Shown here: positions 4,233 to 11,045 of the stretch, in pieces
Layout of the letters: each line of letters begins with the position of its first letter
How positions within the stretch are numbered: the stretch's first letter is position 1
Source: a virus
Reading direction: 5' to 3' (one strand)
DNA length: 28,419 nt
IMG/VR virus record: IMGVR_UViG_3300049048_000006
Location: 1 to 28,419 of that record
Position numbers and translations under genes: made by a program
The notes under the pieces: generated by a model
The model's input: only the letters and a program-made list of their open reading frames with translations
Databases searched by the model: none
What the model was told of the DNA's origin: nothing

Positions 4233-4804
4233 TGGATAAGCAGATTTTAGATATGTGCTGTGGAAGCAAGATGTTCTGGTTCGACAAGAATCATCCAGAC
4301 GTTTTGTTTGGAGACATTCGCACAGAATCGCACACGCTTTGCGATGGTCGTGCACTTGAAGTAACTCCAGATATGGAGATTGATTTCACTGACCTTCCTT
4401 TCCCATCAGATACGTTCAGCATGGTTGTGTTCGATCCACCACATCTAAAAGTTTTGGGCAATGAAAGCTGGATGGCCAAGAAGTATGGCGTATTGAAAGA
4501 AAGTTGGCCAGACGATATTGCATCAGGGTTTAGAGAGGGGTTCCGTGTATTGAAAGATGGCGGATTTTTAATATTCAAGTGGAATGAAACCCAAATCAAG
4601 GTAAGTGAAATTCTCAAGCTCACTCCTTACAAGCCGTTGTTCGGACACATCTCGGGCAAGCGTAGCAACACGCACTGGATTTGTTTCGCAAAGCCGATTA
4701 GTCCGCACCCCAACGTAACGCAGCCGGAAACAAATCTCCCCATATCTGGTTTGGGTGGATACGACCAAGTCCTTCGTGACGAATTTGAGGATGGGAAGAA
4801 GTAG
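4232..4804 (+). CDS. Phage SAM-dependent methyltransferase
   Basis: The 190-aa protein carries a class I methyltransferase motif I, ILDMCCGSKMFWFDK (residues 5-19), and motif IV DPPH (68-71) in VVFDPPHL. These are followed by a GFREGFRVLKDGGFLIFKWNE segment typical of Rossmann methyltransferases. DPPH fits an amino-methyltransferase (N6-adenine or N4-cytosine), so modification of DNA is plausible, but there is no visible target-recognition domain. I prefer ATG 4232 over GTG 4229 because AAGGA at 4220-4224 is better spaced from it. The last 20 residues (ISPHPNVTQPETNLP...) are encoded beside a repeat also found at 6794-6809 and may be a cassette-junction tail. Confidence 0.85.
   Translation: MDKQILDMCCGSKMFWFDKNHPDVLFGDIRTESHTLCDGRALEVTPDMEIDFTDLPFPSDTFSMVVFDPPHLKVLGNESWMAKKYGVLKESWPDDIASGFREGFRVLKDGGFLIFKWNETQIKVSEILKLTPYKPLFGHISGKRSNTHWICFAKPISPHPNVTQPETNLPISGLGGYDQVLRDEFEDGKK
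4695..4710 (+). repeat. Cassette-edge repeat CGATTAGTCCGCACCC, copy 1
   Basis: The 16 bases recur exactly at 6794-6809, and the core ATTAGTCCGCAC also occurs at 6399-6410. Here it encodes ISPHP near the methyltransferase C-terminus. Confidence 0.65.
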
Positions 4805-5230
4805 ATGGATCCCATCAAACGCAAATGGAAGCTCATCAACCAGAACGTCAAGCTCTCCATGCTTGCTGTCCTTGGCAATCTCCCTGTAAGCGAGAGTAAC
4901 CCGCTAGTTATCACTCTGGACGAAGAGAGGCGGAATCTGGATCAGAACGCCAAGTTTCACGCGCTATGCGAAGACCTCGCTAAATCCGGCTATCAGTGGG
5001 CAGGCAAGGAACGTACTGCTGAGCAATGGAAAGTATTGCTGGTTTCTGGTCACGCAATGGCAACCAAGCAAGGTGCAGAGATGGTGCCAGGAATCGAGGG
5101 TGAGTTCGTCAACCTTCGTGAATCGACGGCACGCATGAGTAAAGCACGCAGTAGCAGCTTAATCGAGTACACGCTGGCTTTCTGCGCTAGCAACAACATC
5201 AAACTGACCGATGAAAGGATTGCAGCATGA
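4805..5230 (+). CDS. ninB: NinB recombination protein (lambda Orf-like)
   Basis: The 141-aa protein matches the NinB/Orf family: an N-terminal LVITLDEERRNLDQNAKFHALCEDLAKS with the characteristic R--DQN-KFHAL motif at about residues 35-56, then SLIEYTLAFCASNNIKLTDERI at the end. Lambda Orf is a recombination mediator that binds single-stranded DNA and SSB and can substitute for host RecFOR. The gene abuts the methyltransferase gene and overlaps the next one by four bases, as expected for a nin region. Length is normal for the family. Confidence 0.9.
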   Translation: MDPIKRKWKLINQNVKLSMLAVLGNLPVSESNPLVITLDEERRNLDQNAKFHALCEDLAKSGYQWAGKERTAEQWKVLLVSGHAMATKQGAEMVPGIEGEFVNLRESTARMSKARSSSLIEYTLAFCASNNIKLTDERIAA

Positions 5231-7633: not shown

Positions 7634-7662
7634 TTGCACACAAGTAAAAATAGGTCTAGAAT
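7634..7662 (+). promoter_or_regulatory. Candidate late promoter (pR'-like)
   Basis: TTGCAC (7634-7639) and TAGAAT (7657-7662) are exactly 17 bp apart. It starts 14 bp after the candidate antiterminator gene, and expected transcription (near 7669) runs straight into two terminators. The -10 box is good (5 of 6); the -35 box is moderate. Confidence 0.65.
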
Positions 7663-7760: not shown

Positions 7761-7775
7761 TTGTCCGGAGTATTG

Positions 7776-8162
7776 ATGCAATACGACATGAAGGACGTAA
7801 AGAGAAAGTTCTACACCCAACGCAGTGGCGCAAAGGCTCGCGGCATTGAATTCAAGATGACATTCGATGAGTGGTGGGAAGTCTGGAAGCCACATTGGGC
7901 AAACAGAGGATCAAAGAAAGGCCAGCTAGTAATGTGCCGAAAGATGGATTGTGGCGCATACGAGGTTGGCAATGTCCGAATAGGAACAGTTGACTGCAAT
8001 GCGCGGGACAGGTCATATACATGCCACGACAGGTGGATGAAGGCAGCGCAAGAAGAAGTCAGGCAAGCGCAAAGTGGCGAGTATGAAGAAGAAGATGAAA
8101 ACAGTTGGCTGCCTGATGAACTAAAGAATCCATACCGATCAAGCGCAGATTTCAGATATTAA
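7776..8162 (+). CDS. RGIEF/GAY-GN domain protein next to structured RNA
   Basis: The 128-aa protein starts at ATG 7776 with GGAG at 7767-7770; a TTG at 7761 is less likely. Residues about 12-75 form the same module as the C-terminus of the 779-1378 protein: AKARGIEFKMTFDEWWEVW, an R-G-QLVMCR segment and DCGAYEVGNVRIGTVDCN. The rest is acidic and Glu-rich. The module is probably nucleic-acid related (HNH-like ending without clear catalytic residues), but function is unknown. It is the first gene after the late promoter and terminators and lies immediately before the structured non-coding stretch at 8165-8506. Confidence 0.8.
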   Translation: MQYDMKDVKRKFYTQRSGAKARGIEFKMTFDEWWEVWKPHWANRGSKKGQLVMCRKMDCGAYEVGNVRIGTVDCNARDRSYTCHDRWMKAAQEEVRQAQSGEYEEEDENSWLPDELKNPYRSSADFRY

Positions 8163-8164
8163 AG

Positions 8165-8506
8165 AACACCCATAGCAATATGGGCTAACGTCCGGTTCTA
8201 GACCGTTCCCCACTCGCTAGGCCAACGAGTGGTAGAAGGAACCCACGGGAGGTTCCGACAGTGAATCCCGTTTCTCCAAGAAGCATTAGCATTTATCGCA
8301 AGCGCAACTCTCACCCATCCGAGAGGCGACGAGTGCTAATCCTTGTTGGTGAATGATTCGGCTGTGAATCTGTCAGTGGGTGCAAGCCAGCCCGCGCAAC
8401 TGTGCAGCTTGAGCCATATCAAGCAAACGAAGCTAGAGCCTGAGTTCAGCATAGCCCACCAACAACCCCACACCACAGCCTCATGCTTAACCGCATGGGG
8501 CTTTTT
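8165..8506 (+). ncRNA. Candidate structured RNA with two pseudoknots and its own terminator
   Basis: No credible protein is encoded, but perfect helices fill the stretch. CCCATA/TATGGG closes a GCAA tetraloop (8169-8184). CCACTCG/CGAGTGG (8210-8232). GGAACC/GGTTCC (8238-8256), whose loop ACGGGA (8245-8250) pairs with TCCCGT (8266-8271) as an H-type pseudoknot. ATTAGCA/TGCTAAT (8285-8291/8334-8340) encloses CTCTC/GAGAG (8308-8325). TTGTTGGT/ACCAACAA (8343-8350/8458-8465) encloses GATTC/GAATC (8355-8370) and GCTTGA/TCAAGC (8407-8424). The GATTC hairpin loop GGCTGT (8360-8365) pairs with ACAGCC (8475-8480), on the 5' arm of a terminator. I match it to no known RNA family with confidence. Possible roles are a cis regulator of packaging genes or a stable phage RNA. 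Confidence 0.65.
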
Positions 8507-8521: not shown

Positions 8522-8689
8522 ATGAGCACCAATGACGTTACAGGAGACCGTATCGTTACCAAGCCATCCAAGAAGTACGAAGACAACTACGACGCAATCT
8601 TTCGAAAGGACAAAGCCATGTTCGGTAAAAAGCCAAAGGGTACGGGTAAGAAGCCAATGCCAGGGAAGAAAGGTAAAGCAGGCTGCTAA
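8522..8689 (+). CDS. Small conserved-type phage protein, 55 aa
   Basis: GGAG at 8512-8515 precedes the ATG. The product opens with STNDVTGDRIVTKPSKKYEDNY and ends in a Lys/Gly-rich tail (KKPKGTGKKPMPGKKGK). Proteins with a TGDRIV-KP start are common near phage terminase genes, but their function is unknown. The stop abuts the next ATG. Confidence 0.8.
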   Translation: MSTNDVTGDRIVTKPSKKYEDNYDAIFRKDKAMFGKKPKGTGKKPMPGKKGKAGC

Positions 8690-9355
8690 ATGCTTCCTGT
8701 GTATGTCGGGTATGACGAACGGGAAGCCGTCGCATACCACACTTACTGTAATTCAATCATCAGACGGGCTACAAAGCCCGTTTCTTTTTGCCCATTAGCC
8801 TTAAACACGCTGCACGAATACGAAGAGAAGCACGCAGACGGTAGTAACGCTTTCATCTATTCGCGCTTCCTAGTCCCTCATCTACAGAACTATCAGGGAT
8901 GGGCGCTGTTTGCTGATGGAGACATGATCGTAAACGAAGACATCGTTAAGTTATTCGACCTAGCTGATGAAACCAAAGCCGTGATGGTGGTGAAGCATGA
9001 CTACAAGACTAGATTCCCACGCAAGTATCTCGGCAACAAGAACGAAGACTATCCACGGAAGAACTGGTCAAGCGTCATCCTGTGGAACTGCGGTCACCCA
9101 AAGAACAAGATCCTTACGCCGGAATATATCCAACAGGCAAGCGGAGCACTTCTTCATCGCTTTCAGTGGCTGGACGATGGAGACATCGGGCAACTGAAGC
9201 ACGCATGGAATTGGTTGGTTTCGGAGTACAGCTATAACCCATCAGCCAAATTACTTCATTACACCGTAGGCACTCCCTGCTTCCAGGAATACGCAGACTG
9301 CGAACATGCAGATCAGTGGTATTCGGAATACGAGAAGGCAAGAGCGCCACTTTAA
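8690..9355 (+). CDS. Glycosyltransferase (GT-A, GT8-like)
   Basis: The 221-aa protein begins LPVYVGYDEREAVAYHTYCNSII, as in phage GT8-like enzymes. It carries the metal/nucleotide-sugar motif Asp-Gly-Asp at residues 76-78 (WALFADGDMIV), then SSVILWNC and a C-terminal HYTVGTPCF segment with His and Cys typical of the fold. It should transfer a sugar from a nucleotide-sugar donor; the acceptor (virion protein, modified DNA base or host surface glycan) is not visible. It lies inside the packaging module, one base after the 55-aa gene. The first 30 codons contain a perfect terminator-like hairpin. Confidence 0.85.
   Translation: MLPVYVGYDEREAVAYHTYCNSIIRRATKPVSFCPLALNTLHEYEEKHADGSNAFIYSRFLVPHLQNYQGWALFADGDMIVNEDIVKLFDLADETKAVMVVKHDYKTRFPRKYLGNKNEDYPRKNWSSVILWNCGHPKNKILTPEYIQQASGALLHRFQWLDDGDIGQLKHAWNWLVSEYSYNPSAKLLHYTVGTPCFQEYADCEHADQWYSEYEKARAPL
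8764..8789 (+). terminator. Terminator-like hairpin inside the glycosyltransferase gene
   Basis: ACGGGCT (8764-8770) and AGCCCGT (8775-8781) close an ACAA loop, followed by TTTCTTTTT. It overlaps codons for residues about 25-34, so it could attenuate late transcription unless antitermination is active. Confidence 0.65.
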
Positions 9356-9397: not shown

Positions 9398-9652
9398 ATG
9401 GCTGGAAAACCAGGGATGCATAAGAAGCTGCTTAACCCTGCGGCTGTAGAAGTAATAAGAGAAAAGATAGAAGCAGAGAAATTAATTAAAAAGCTTGAAA
9501 GTCATGTGCTTACAGGCGAAGAAATGACAAGCTCACAAGTTACTGCTGCATTAGGGTTGCTAAAGAAGAAAGTACCAGACCTTTCTGCTGTAGAGCACAG
9601 CGGAGAAGTTGAGACAACTAGAGCATTGGCTGATGTCCTTAAGTCTCTCTGA
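9398..9652 (+). CDS. Terminase small subunit
   Basis: The 84-aa protein ends in the pattern MTSSQVTAALGLLKKKVPDLSAVEHSGE (about residues 43-70), the conserved C-terminal region of one class of small terminases (TerS), here immediately upstream of the large subunit. TerS binds the packaging start site and recruits TerL. At 84 aa it is short, with only a brief N-terminal stretch before KKLESHVL. Its 3' end overlaps the terL start by 20 bases. Confidence 0.85.
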   Translation: MAGKPGMHKKLLNPAAVEVIREKIEAEKLIKKLESHVLTGEEMTSSQVTAALGLLKKKVPDLSAVEHSGEVETTRALADVLKSL

Positions 9653-11045
9653 AGAGGATCTAGCAGCCTTAGAGCAAAAGATTGTCGAGTGGCGTAAAGG
9701 TGGGCCTGCCCTGTTCGCTAAAGAGGCTTTAGGTGCAAGTCCAACAGACCAGCAATGGGAAGCATCGAAAGCTATTGTAGAGAAGAGAAAGGTCTCGATA
9801 CGGTCTGGGCACGGCACTGGCAAGTCTGCGTTCATGGCTTGGTGTGTATTGTGGTTCCCAATCTGCTATTTCCCTTGCAAGGTTCCGTGTACCGCGCCAA
9901 CGAGTCACCAATTGCAAGACGTTCTCTGGGCAGAGGTGGCTAAGTGGCACTCAAGACTCATTGAGAGAATCCCAGAGCTAGGCAATCAATTCGCTTGGTC
10001 AAGTGAGCGGTTTGGCATGATCGACAGGCCGCAAGAGTCTTTCGCAGTCGCACGAACATCGCGCCCTGAAAAGCCAGAGGCCCTGCAAGGGTTTCACTCA
10101 GAGAACATCCTATTCCTGATTGATGAAGCATCAGGGGTACCAGAAAAAGTATTTGAAGTGGCAGAGGGCGCATTGTCCACGGACGGCGCTTTCGTGCTGA
10201 TGGCTGCTAACCCAACTCGTGAAGATGGGTATTTCTACCAGAGCCACCACAAGATGCGCTCTCGATGGGCAGCGCTACATTGGGATGGCGAGGAAAGCCC
10301 GATGGTTAGTAAGACGTACATTGAAGACATGCGTCTCAAGTACGGCGTTGATTCCCCAATTTACCAAGTCCGCGTCAAAGGCAACTTCGCAACTGCCGCA
10401 GATGGTGTTATCCCATTGCATCTGTGCGTATCTGCTCAGCAACGAGAGATACAGGCAATTGCAGGCGCTGATGAGATATGGGGGCTTGACGTTGCCAGGT
10501 TCGGCGATGACTCGACGGCATTGGCTAAGCGCAGAGGAAATATTCAGGTAGAGCCTACTCAAGAGTGGTTTGGCAAAGACACCATGCAGACTGCGGGGCT
10601 TATTAAGAAAGAGTACGAGAATTCAGCCAAGAAGCCCGTAAGCATCAATGTGGATGTGATTGGCATCGGTGCTGGCGTTGTTGATCGCTTGAAAGAGCTT
10701 GGATTGCCAGTAAGAGGCATCAATGTGGCAGAAGCAGCAAGCGTTAGCGAGCAGTACTCAAGATTGCGTGATGAGCTTTGGTTCAATGGCAGAGAGTGGC
10801 TAGAAGAGCGTGATTGCAAGTTGTGTGAAGGCGATGACGCGCTTATAGGCGAGTTGACTACTGCCAAGTATTCAGTGCTAAGCAACGGCAAAATCAAGGT
10901 CGAAGGCAAGGATGAGATGAAGCGCCGAGGCGTTCAGTCCCCTAATCGTGCAGACGCTTGGCTTCTTACCTTTGCGCCTATCAGTGCATCTACTTCCCAT
11001 AAGTGGAGAGCGCCCATCAAGTATCCGAACATGGGGATTGTTTAA
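9633..11045 (+). CDS. Terminase large subunit
   Basis: The 470-aa protein is the packaging motor and nuclease. It has Walker A SGHGTGKSA (residues 58-66), Walker B ILFLIDEAS (about 159-167) and AANPTREDGYFY as the coupling region. The C-terminal RNase H-like nuclease domain starts with WGLDVARFGDDS and continues with DVIGIGAGVVDRL and a late Asp in NRADAWLL. The reading frame opens earlier at a TTG (9609); I chose ATG 9633 because the Walker A distance then fits and the TTG is poorly spaced from its GGAG. It overlaps terS, as is usual. Confidence 0.95.
   Translation: MSLSLSEEDLAALEQKIVEWRKGGPALFAKEALGASPTDQQWEASKAIVEKRKVSIRSGHGTGKSAFMAWCVLWFPICYFPCKVPCTAPTSHQLQDVLWAEVAKWHSRLIERIPELGNQFAWSSERFGMIDRPQESFAVARTSRPEKPEALQGFHSENILFLIDEASGVPEKVFEVAEGALSTDGAFVLMAANPTREDGYFYQSHHKMRSRWAALHWDGEESPMVSKTYIEDMRLKYGVDSPIYQVRVKGNFATAADGVIPLHLCVSAQQREIQAIAGADEIWGLDVARFGDDSTALAKRRGNIQVEPTQEWFGKDTMQTAGLIKKEYENSAKKPVSINVDVIGIGAGVVDRLKELGLPVRGINVAEAASVSEQYSRLRDELWFNGREWLEERDCKLCEGDDALIGELTTAKYSVLSNGKIKVEGKDEMKRRGVQSPNRADAWLLTFAPISASTSHKWRAPIKYPNMGIV

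Follow-up and report, generated by a model that had tools for sequence, protein, structure and literature searches.

Among the RNAs carried by phages, GOLLD and ROOL are large, structured, of unknown function and associated with tRNA genes, and the put antiterminator RNAs and lambdoid late leaders are structured RNAs located upstream of a terminator and the late genes. Those put RNAs that are of the HK022 type promote readthrough of terminators. Structures of GOLLD and ROOL are treated in PMC12286853. The vrRNAs of VIPR are phage-encoded, ~100 nt long, combine a structured constant part with a hypervariable one, carry 9-16 YNNGG repeats and are used in inter-phage conflict (PMC13142463). The prophage sRNAs AgvB, AsxR and Pas and the P22 sncRNAs, which are non-coding RNAs of lambdoid phages or prophages, are described as Hfq-binding or antisense (PMC4104026, PMC13192938, PMC13397905).

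We analysed an RNA encoded in a virus contig of 28,419 bases (the window). It occupies positions 8165-8506. An HNH-like gene (7761-8162) precedes it and a small ORF follows, and the genes for the terminase large subunit and the portal protein are downstream; all features of the RNA given below lie on the plus strand. The minimum free energy of this stretch is -128.9 kcal/mol against a mean of -96.4 for dinucleotide-shuffled sequence (z -6.27; 0/100 shuffles as low), so that it folds far below its shuffled controls. The helices listed in the original prediction that we tested were exact at their coordinates, namely 8238-8243/8251-8256, 8245-8250/8266-8271, 8343-8350/8458-8465 and the complementarity of 8360-8365 with 8475-8480. 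These 340 bases thus form a genuine structured RNA. It is modular: a pseudoknotted 5' core specific to the lineage is followed by motif I, which is a variable stem-loop, by a diverged version of an element that we call motif II, and by a terminator. Searched with Rfam covariance models, the stretch had no match above the curated gathering threshold and only chance matches at permissive E-values; no tRNA or tmRNA was found in it with tRNA covariance models and ARAGORN, and a DNA search of phages and plasmids with the whole stretch returned nothing useful. A visual likeness of GGGTGCAAGCC..CCGCGCAACTG to a cobalamin riboswitch was dropped, as no cobalamin model matched.

The 5' core (8169-8271) begins with hairpin H1 (8169-8184, CCCATA-GCAA-TATGGG), read from the sequence, whose stem 8169-8174/8179-8184 closes the GCAA tetraloop noted originally; in the sister contig L083 the GNRA loop is GAAA and sits on a different stem. 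Two further hairpins (8193-8232) follow, CGGT-TCTAG-ACCG (8193-8205) and 8210-8216/8226-8232 with the invariant loop CTAGGCCAA, and then an H-type pseudoknot (8238-8271) with the stem 8238-8243/8251-8256, in which loop 8245-8250 would pair with 8266-8271. The sister contigs L082/L084 (~94% DNA identity in shared blocks) and L083, found via a neighbouring gene, have both this core and the 3' terminator (8477-8506) in common with the window. Across three related contigs 98.5% of the cells in the core helices are paired and 9/22 pairs are changed on both sides, with 0/500 shuffles as high. Such double changes affect 5/7 pairs of the hairpin 8210-8216/8226-8232 (window, L084 and L083) and 4/6 pairs of the pseudoknot stem (window and sisters). 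The sister contigs thus retain the 5' helices through compensatory changes, which supports the core, on the basis of three sequences, as a selected structure; the pairs 8245-8250/8266-8271 are nearly invariant and therefore compatible with the pseudoknot, though unproven by covariation. Neither pattern searches nor blast found the core beyond the sisters, and one further exact string match, in L165, looks like chance.

The region between core and terminator is different in L084 and absent from L083, where the core adjoins the terminator directly. The replaced middle of L084 (3563-3763, equivalent to 8284-8452 of the window) contains a T-arm-like hairpin, CTGCG-TTCGATT-CGCAG, within the same closing stem TTGTTGG/CCAACAA as window motif II; it was not called a tRNA, since no tRNA model matched. 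Upstream of the core RNA, L084 (2560-2850) and L083 (185-530) have another stretch that looks like a structured RNA and ends in a terminator of its own (TATAGGTGCAGTGAATAAGGCA ... GAGCGCACCTATA). The window lacks it; its ends, GUGCA...GCGCAC, are those of some members of the family described next.

The intrinsic terminator that ends the RNA (8477-8506) is present in L083 and L084 and, at the same place, in L169, a relative by portal protein in which the preceding RNA differs. This other RNA has GTGCAATGCGTAGGCTG and a matching tail in common with L003, and other viral contigs have the same combination. A blast search with a consensus of both halves gave matches in 147 isolated-phage records, most of them in gaps without annotation, and a longer consensus matched 130 records, including HK620, HK633, mEp460, IME11 and the P1-like RCS47. 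The choice of search patterns biases this set of loci. Pattern matches in L165, L175, L177, L180 and L181 were set aside as probable chance matches by sequence, and L183 has a partial match to hairpin B only.

Comparison of the members shows motif II as a closing stem and two hairpins with mutually complementary, putatively kissing loops around an interior that is neither conserved nor structured. Among 21 non-identical phage members (window excluded), the closing stem of the frame, P1, has ~10 pairs, each of which covaries. The linker AAT leads from it to hairpin A (GCGCA/TGCGC or a variant of this), and hairpin B (GCCGG/CCGGC) is joined straight to P1. In this set 92.4% of cells are paired, against at most 42.4% in slid controls, and 77 cells carry double changes, against 26.6 in shuffled alignments. 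The loops of A (GCUGA) and B (UCAGC) are complementary over 5 pairs; these pairs are near invariant, so the kissing contact is deduced from complementarity and cannot be proved by covariation. In members found in further Pseudomonadota genomes, hairpin A also occurs as GCGGA/TCCGC, and new pairs appear in P1. Neither Rfam 15 nor the tRNA models matched the family relatives above the gathering threshold, and no description of the family was found in the openly accessible literature. Motif II is thus well supported as an RNA family. It is absent from Rfam and seems to be new as a family, an earlier description outside that literature being possible.

The 3' half of the window RNA is, on the evidence of a covariance model, a distant member of this family. 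The model (R1), built from 18 members with the window and its sisters left out, matches 8342-8467 with 33.1 bits (E 7.5e-9), and the next best match in the window has 6.9 bits; the model E-values are rough, so that more weight is given to a control of 498 kb of other phage DNA, in which the best score was 16.3 bits. The window element would comprise P1 (8343-8351/8457-8465), hairpin A (8355-8359/8366-8370), hairpin B (about 8438-8442/8452-8456) and the kissing loops (8361-8364/8447-8450). It has 9/10 family pairs in P1, all 5 pairs of hairpin A with GATTC/GAATC in place of GCGCA/TGCGC, 4/5 kissing pairs (GCUG 8361-8364 with CAGC 8447-8450) and, in the R1 alignment, 4/5 pairs of hairpin B including one G-U, with one C-C mismatch. 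Most members score 57-101 bits, and the only full-length member scoring below the window is that of Stenotrophomonas phage CM1 (28.4 bits); a wide genome search with stricter filters missed the window member. The 108-base-span stem 8343-8350/8458-8465 of the original prediction is the homologue of P1, in which 10/10 pairs covary across the family. The loop 8360-8365 is indeed complementary to 8475-8480, but as its partner in the fold that segment gives way to 8447-8450, in the same domain, with which family homology pairs 8361-8364. The segment 8475-8480 overlaps the 5' arm of the terminator, so that pairing of the loop there would compete with the terminator, and this pairing has no counterpart in the family. 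The statement that the RNA matches no known family likewise holds for Rfam but not in the sense of an orphan, as its 3' half belongs to a widespread phage family.

Set against the known systems, motif II resembles GOLLD and ROOL as a structured phage RNA associated with tRNA genes, but neither the window nor its relatives match either model in Rfam, and motif II, at about 97-240 nt, combines a kissing frame of two hairpins with an interior that is not conserved. With the VIPR guides it has in common the plan of a constant and a variable part; however, the 23 family elements inspected never have >3 GGYNN units in register on either strand, and the absence of VIPR repeats excludes the family as VIPR guides. 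A closing stem, two arms with interacting loops, a second arm abutting the closing stem and an insert between the arms recall tRNA and tmRNA, from which motif II differs in having no tRNA model match, T-loop consensus or CCA. Like the put RNAs and lambdoid late leaders, the window RNA lies upstream of a terminator and late genes; the motif II family, in contrast, is found in other contexts as well and in multiple copies, and we set it apart on these grounds of context and copy number. The prophage sRNAs are likewise non-coding RNAs of lambdoid phages or prophages but show no frame in common with motif II, as judged from passages of their descriptions.

In the window, the interior of motif II (8371-8437) cannot be aligned with the rest of the family and folds with a z of -0.75. 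Family interiors are about 33-165 nt long and not alignable, and in 27 members their mean folding z is -0.21 (se 0.19), which is no excess of structure, with a mean of -2.14 for whole elements. The Pseudomonas phages ZC03 and ZC08 are near-identical on either side of the interior but differ within it, the break falling at the frame. Between Klebsiella phage SopranoGao and an E. coli prophage, 38/38 interior bases match, and there is no homology beyond the element in the fetched loci; two Klebsiella phages (L186 and L190) are 97.6% identical over the element alone, again with no homology beyond it in the fetched loci. The differences between interiors are replacement and not drift, and recombination in the conserved halves would produce them. 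Selection may favour the exchange, although the variability could also reflect relaxed constraint plus recombination instead of selected specificity. An antisense test of the window interior against its own contig gave a best match no better than shuffled sequence.

The family is present in many unrelated bacterial viruses. Members were detected in phages of Klebsiella, Pseudomonas, Escherichia, Erwinia, Aeromonas, Burkholderia and Xanthomonas, in P1-like phage-plasmids and in lambdoid prophages. Blast matches were present in 1051/5426 complete E. coli genomes, unannotated among the matches listed, and the model matched 4/4 E. coli loci checked. Across Pseudomonadota, 11/398 species genomes had a match at E <= 1e-4, and both halves were readable in 7/8 of those fetched. 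Members often follow the Q antiterminator and precede holin, lysis or terminase genes, or lie within or beside tRNA clusters (e.g. ZC08, ZC03 and P1-like plasmids); others lie elsewhere, including early regions. In 11/29 loci a tRNA gene is present within 300 nt of the element, always on the same strand, and positions drawn at random from these loci have one so close in 10% of cases; this is an association rather than a test as the loci are not independent. In ZC03 a tRNA-Arg is inserted just before motif II, exactly at the junction with motif I. In one P1-like phage-plasmid (L207, 2512-3329) three tandem elements, the third weak, follow tRNA-Asn and tRNA-Thr. In L003, the place equivalent to the window RNA has genes for tRNA-Gly and tRNA-Asp (4765-4923), which separate the family element from the terminator.

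The conserved frame with a swapped interior suggests an RNA tool of exchangeable specificity. We give an even chance to our preferred reading, that of motif II RNA as a trans-acting phage scaffold, stable, with a frame that is recognised or protective and an interior that is specific. The element would be transcribed as a stable non-coding RNA inside late-leader or tRNA-cluster transcripts and would act in trans; its rigid frame would be the part recognised by a host or phage factor, or would protect the RNA, and the exchangeable interior would determine specificity, through base pairing or by serving as a decoy, in conflicts with host or rival phages. The stable phage transcript that had been among the roles first suggested fits this reading, its stability being presumed. 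More tentatively, motif II may stand for a class of RNAs common to many kinds of phage (P1-like, lambdoid, N4-like and jumbo) in which a kissing-loop scaffold carries an exchangeable unstructured specificity sequence as guide or decoy in phage-host or phage-phage conflict. A covarying family absent from Rfam, with matches in about one fifth of complete E. coli genomes and in HK620, mEp460 and P1-like plasmids, would fill a gap in phage biology and could be tested in laboratory strains. Frame and swapped interior resemble the outline of RNA-guided or RNA-decoy systems, with the direct prediction that specificity resides in the interiors.

Other readings explain parts of the same evidence. A cis-acting late leader that controls readthrough of the terminator 8477-8506, by put-like or Q-linked antitermination, would account for the position of the window RNA before the terminase genes, for the terminator common to L083, L084 and L169, and for the many relatives between Q and holin or terminase. 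It could work, for instance, through pairing of loop 8360-8365 with the terminator 5' arm, where the complementarity to 8475-8480 lies, or through the UUGUUGG strand common to two stems, which would switch between motif I and motif II. We consider it unlikely, because tRNA clusters and early regions also contain members, P1-like plasmids have tandem copies, the loop-terminator pairing lacks a family counterpart, and L083 has the core and terminator but no motif II. The last point, together with elements situated in tRNA clusters or early regions or next to unrelated lysis genes, also speaks against the packaging role or regulation of terminase expression named in the original prediction. That the stretch serves the downstream terminase in packaging, as an RNA or as a pac/cos-like element, is hardly credible: the element does lie ~1.1 kb upstream of the terminase large subunit, yet elsewhere it is far from terminase genes and in phages of unrelated gene content, close relatives by terminase mostly lack it, and the spread of genomic contexts counts against an RNA of the phi29 type, which assembles on the portal and without which packaging fails.

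The topology of motif II also invites a reading as a tRNA-shaped mimic or decoy that occupies tRNA-binding factors or tRNA-directed host nucleases, with P1 as acceptor stem, A as D arm, B as T arm abutting P1 and the kissing loops as elbow. The 3-nt linker before A, the absence of a linker between B and P1 and the 5-bp stem of B agree with this, as do the tRNA genes near family loci and the tRNA-Arg at the motif I/II junction of ZC03. It is nonetheless quite unlikely, given that the element has no T-loop consensus, CCA end or tRNA model match, that in their details the loops, of 6 and 9 nt and with 5 Watson-Crick pairs, do not resemble those of a tRNA, and that more than half of the loci have no nearby tRNA, tRNA clusters being a common site for phage cargo. 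The clean replacement of interiors at the frame boundaries and the identical elements in otherwise unrelated phages would also be expected of a DNA-level exchange cassette, in which the conserved halves would be recombination or single-strand folding sites for swapping inserts and the RNA fold would be incidental. This is very improbable: the annotated loci viewed have no recombinase gene in common, no integron attC core was seen, conserved loop sequences and a kissing contact are unnecessary for DNA exchange, and homologous recombination in short conserved halves explains the swapping without a dedicated system.

In many loci a long stem, motif I, lies directly 5' of motif II, and its 3' strand overlaps the 5' strand of P1, so that the two stems compete for that strand. 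In the window, motif I (8276-8349) pairs 8276-8293 with 8332-8349 around a variable interior (8294-8331), and the best stem upstream reaches a score of 13, the mean of shuffled sequence being 6.3 (1/60 shuffles as high); 12/32 family loci have 0/60 shuffles as high. As motif I is significant in about half of the loci or fewer, we treat it as a frequent companion outside the family definition. Forcing P1 in the window costs ~8 kcal/mol relative to the motif I fold, with the kissing contact not counted. A switch between motif I and P1 may exist.

The genes and candidate signals around the RNA, also on the plus strand, were inspected too. The upstream gene (7761-8162, 133 aa) is HNH endonuclease-like (phrog_16521, 1.7e-14; phrog_3118 HNH, 1.8e-5); its position is taken by other ORFs in L084 and L083, which places it outside the RNA system, and no relative was found with its protein as search bait. 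A weak sigma70-like late promoter candidate (7635-7662, TGCACA-16-TAGAAT) matches the consensus at 9/12 positions; the scan gave this one site against a shuffle average of 2.6, so the candidate is not evidence by itself. The corresponding place in L169 has a better candidate (11/12). Downstream, a small ORF of 55 aa (8522-8689) has no PHROG match and lies outside the RNA, and the terminase large subunit is encoded at 9609-11045 (phrog_2, 6.2e-40). By DNA similarity, most of the close relatives by terminase have no RNA like it. One phage contig among the relatives by terminase, L004, has a Betaproteobacteria-1 sRNA (1113-1234; RF02932, 80.5 bits) upstream of its terminase gene. Another relative (L017, 5415-5440) has an isolated family tail (GCCGGAGATCAGCACCGGCCACC) upstream of terminase, the 5' half not being recognised. 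Within the window, the ORF 8690-9355 contains a terminator-like hairpin (AGACGGGCTACAAAGCCCGTTTCTTTTT) at 8762-8790.
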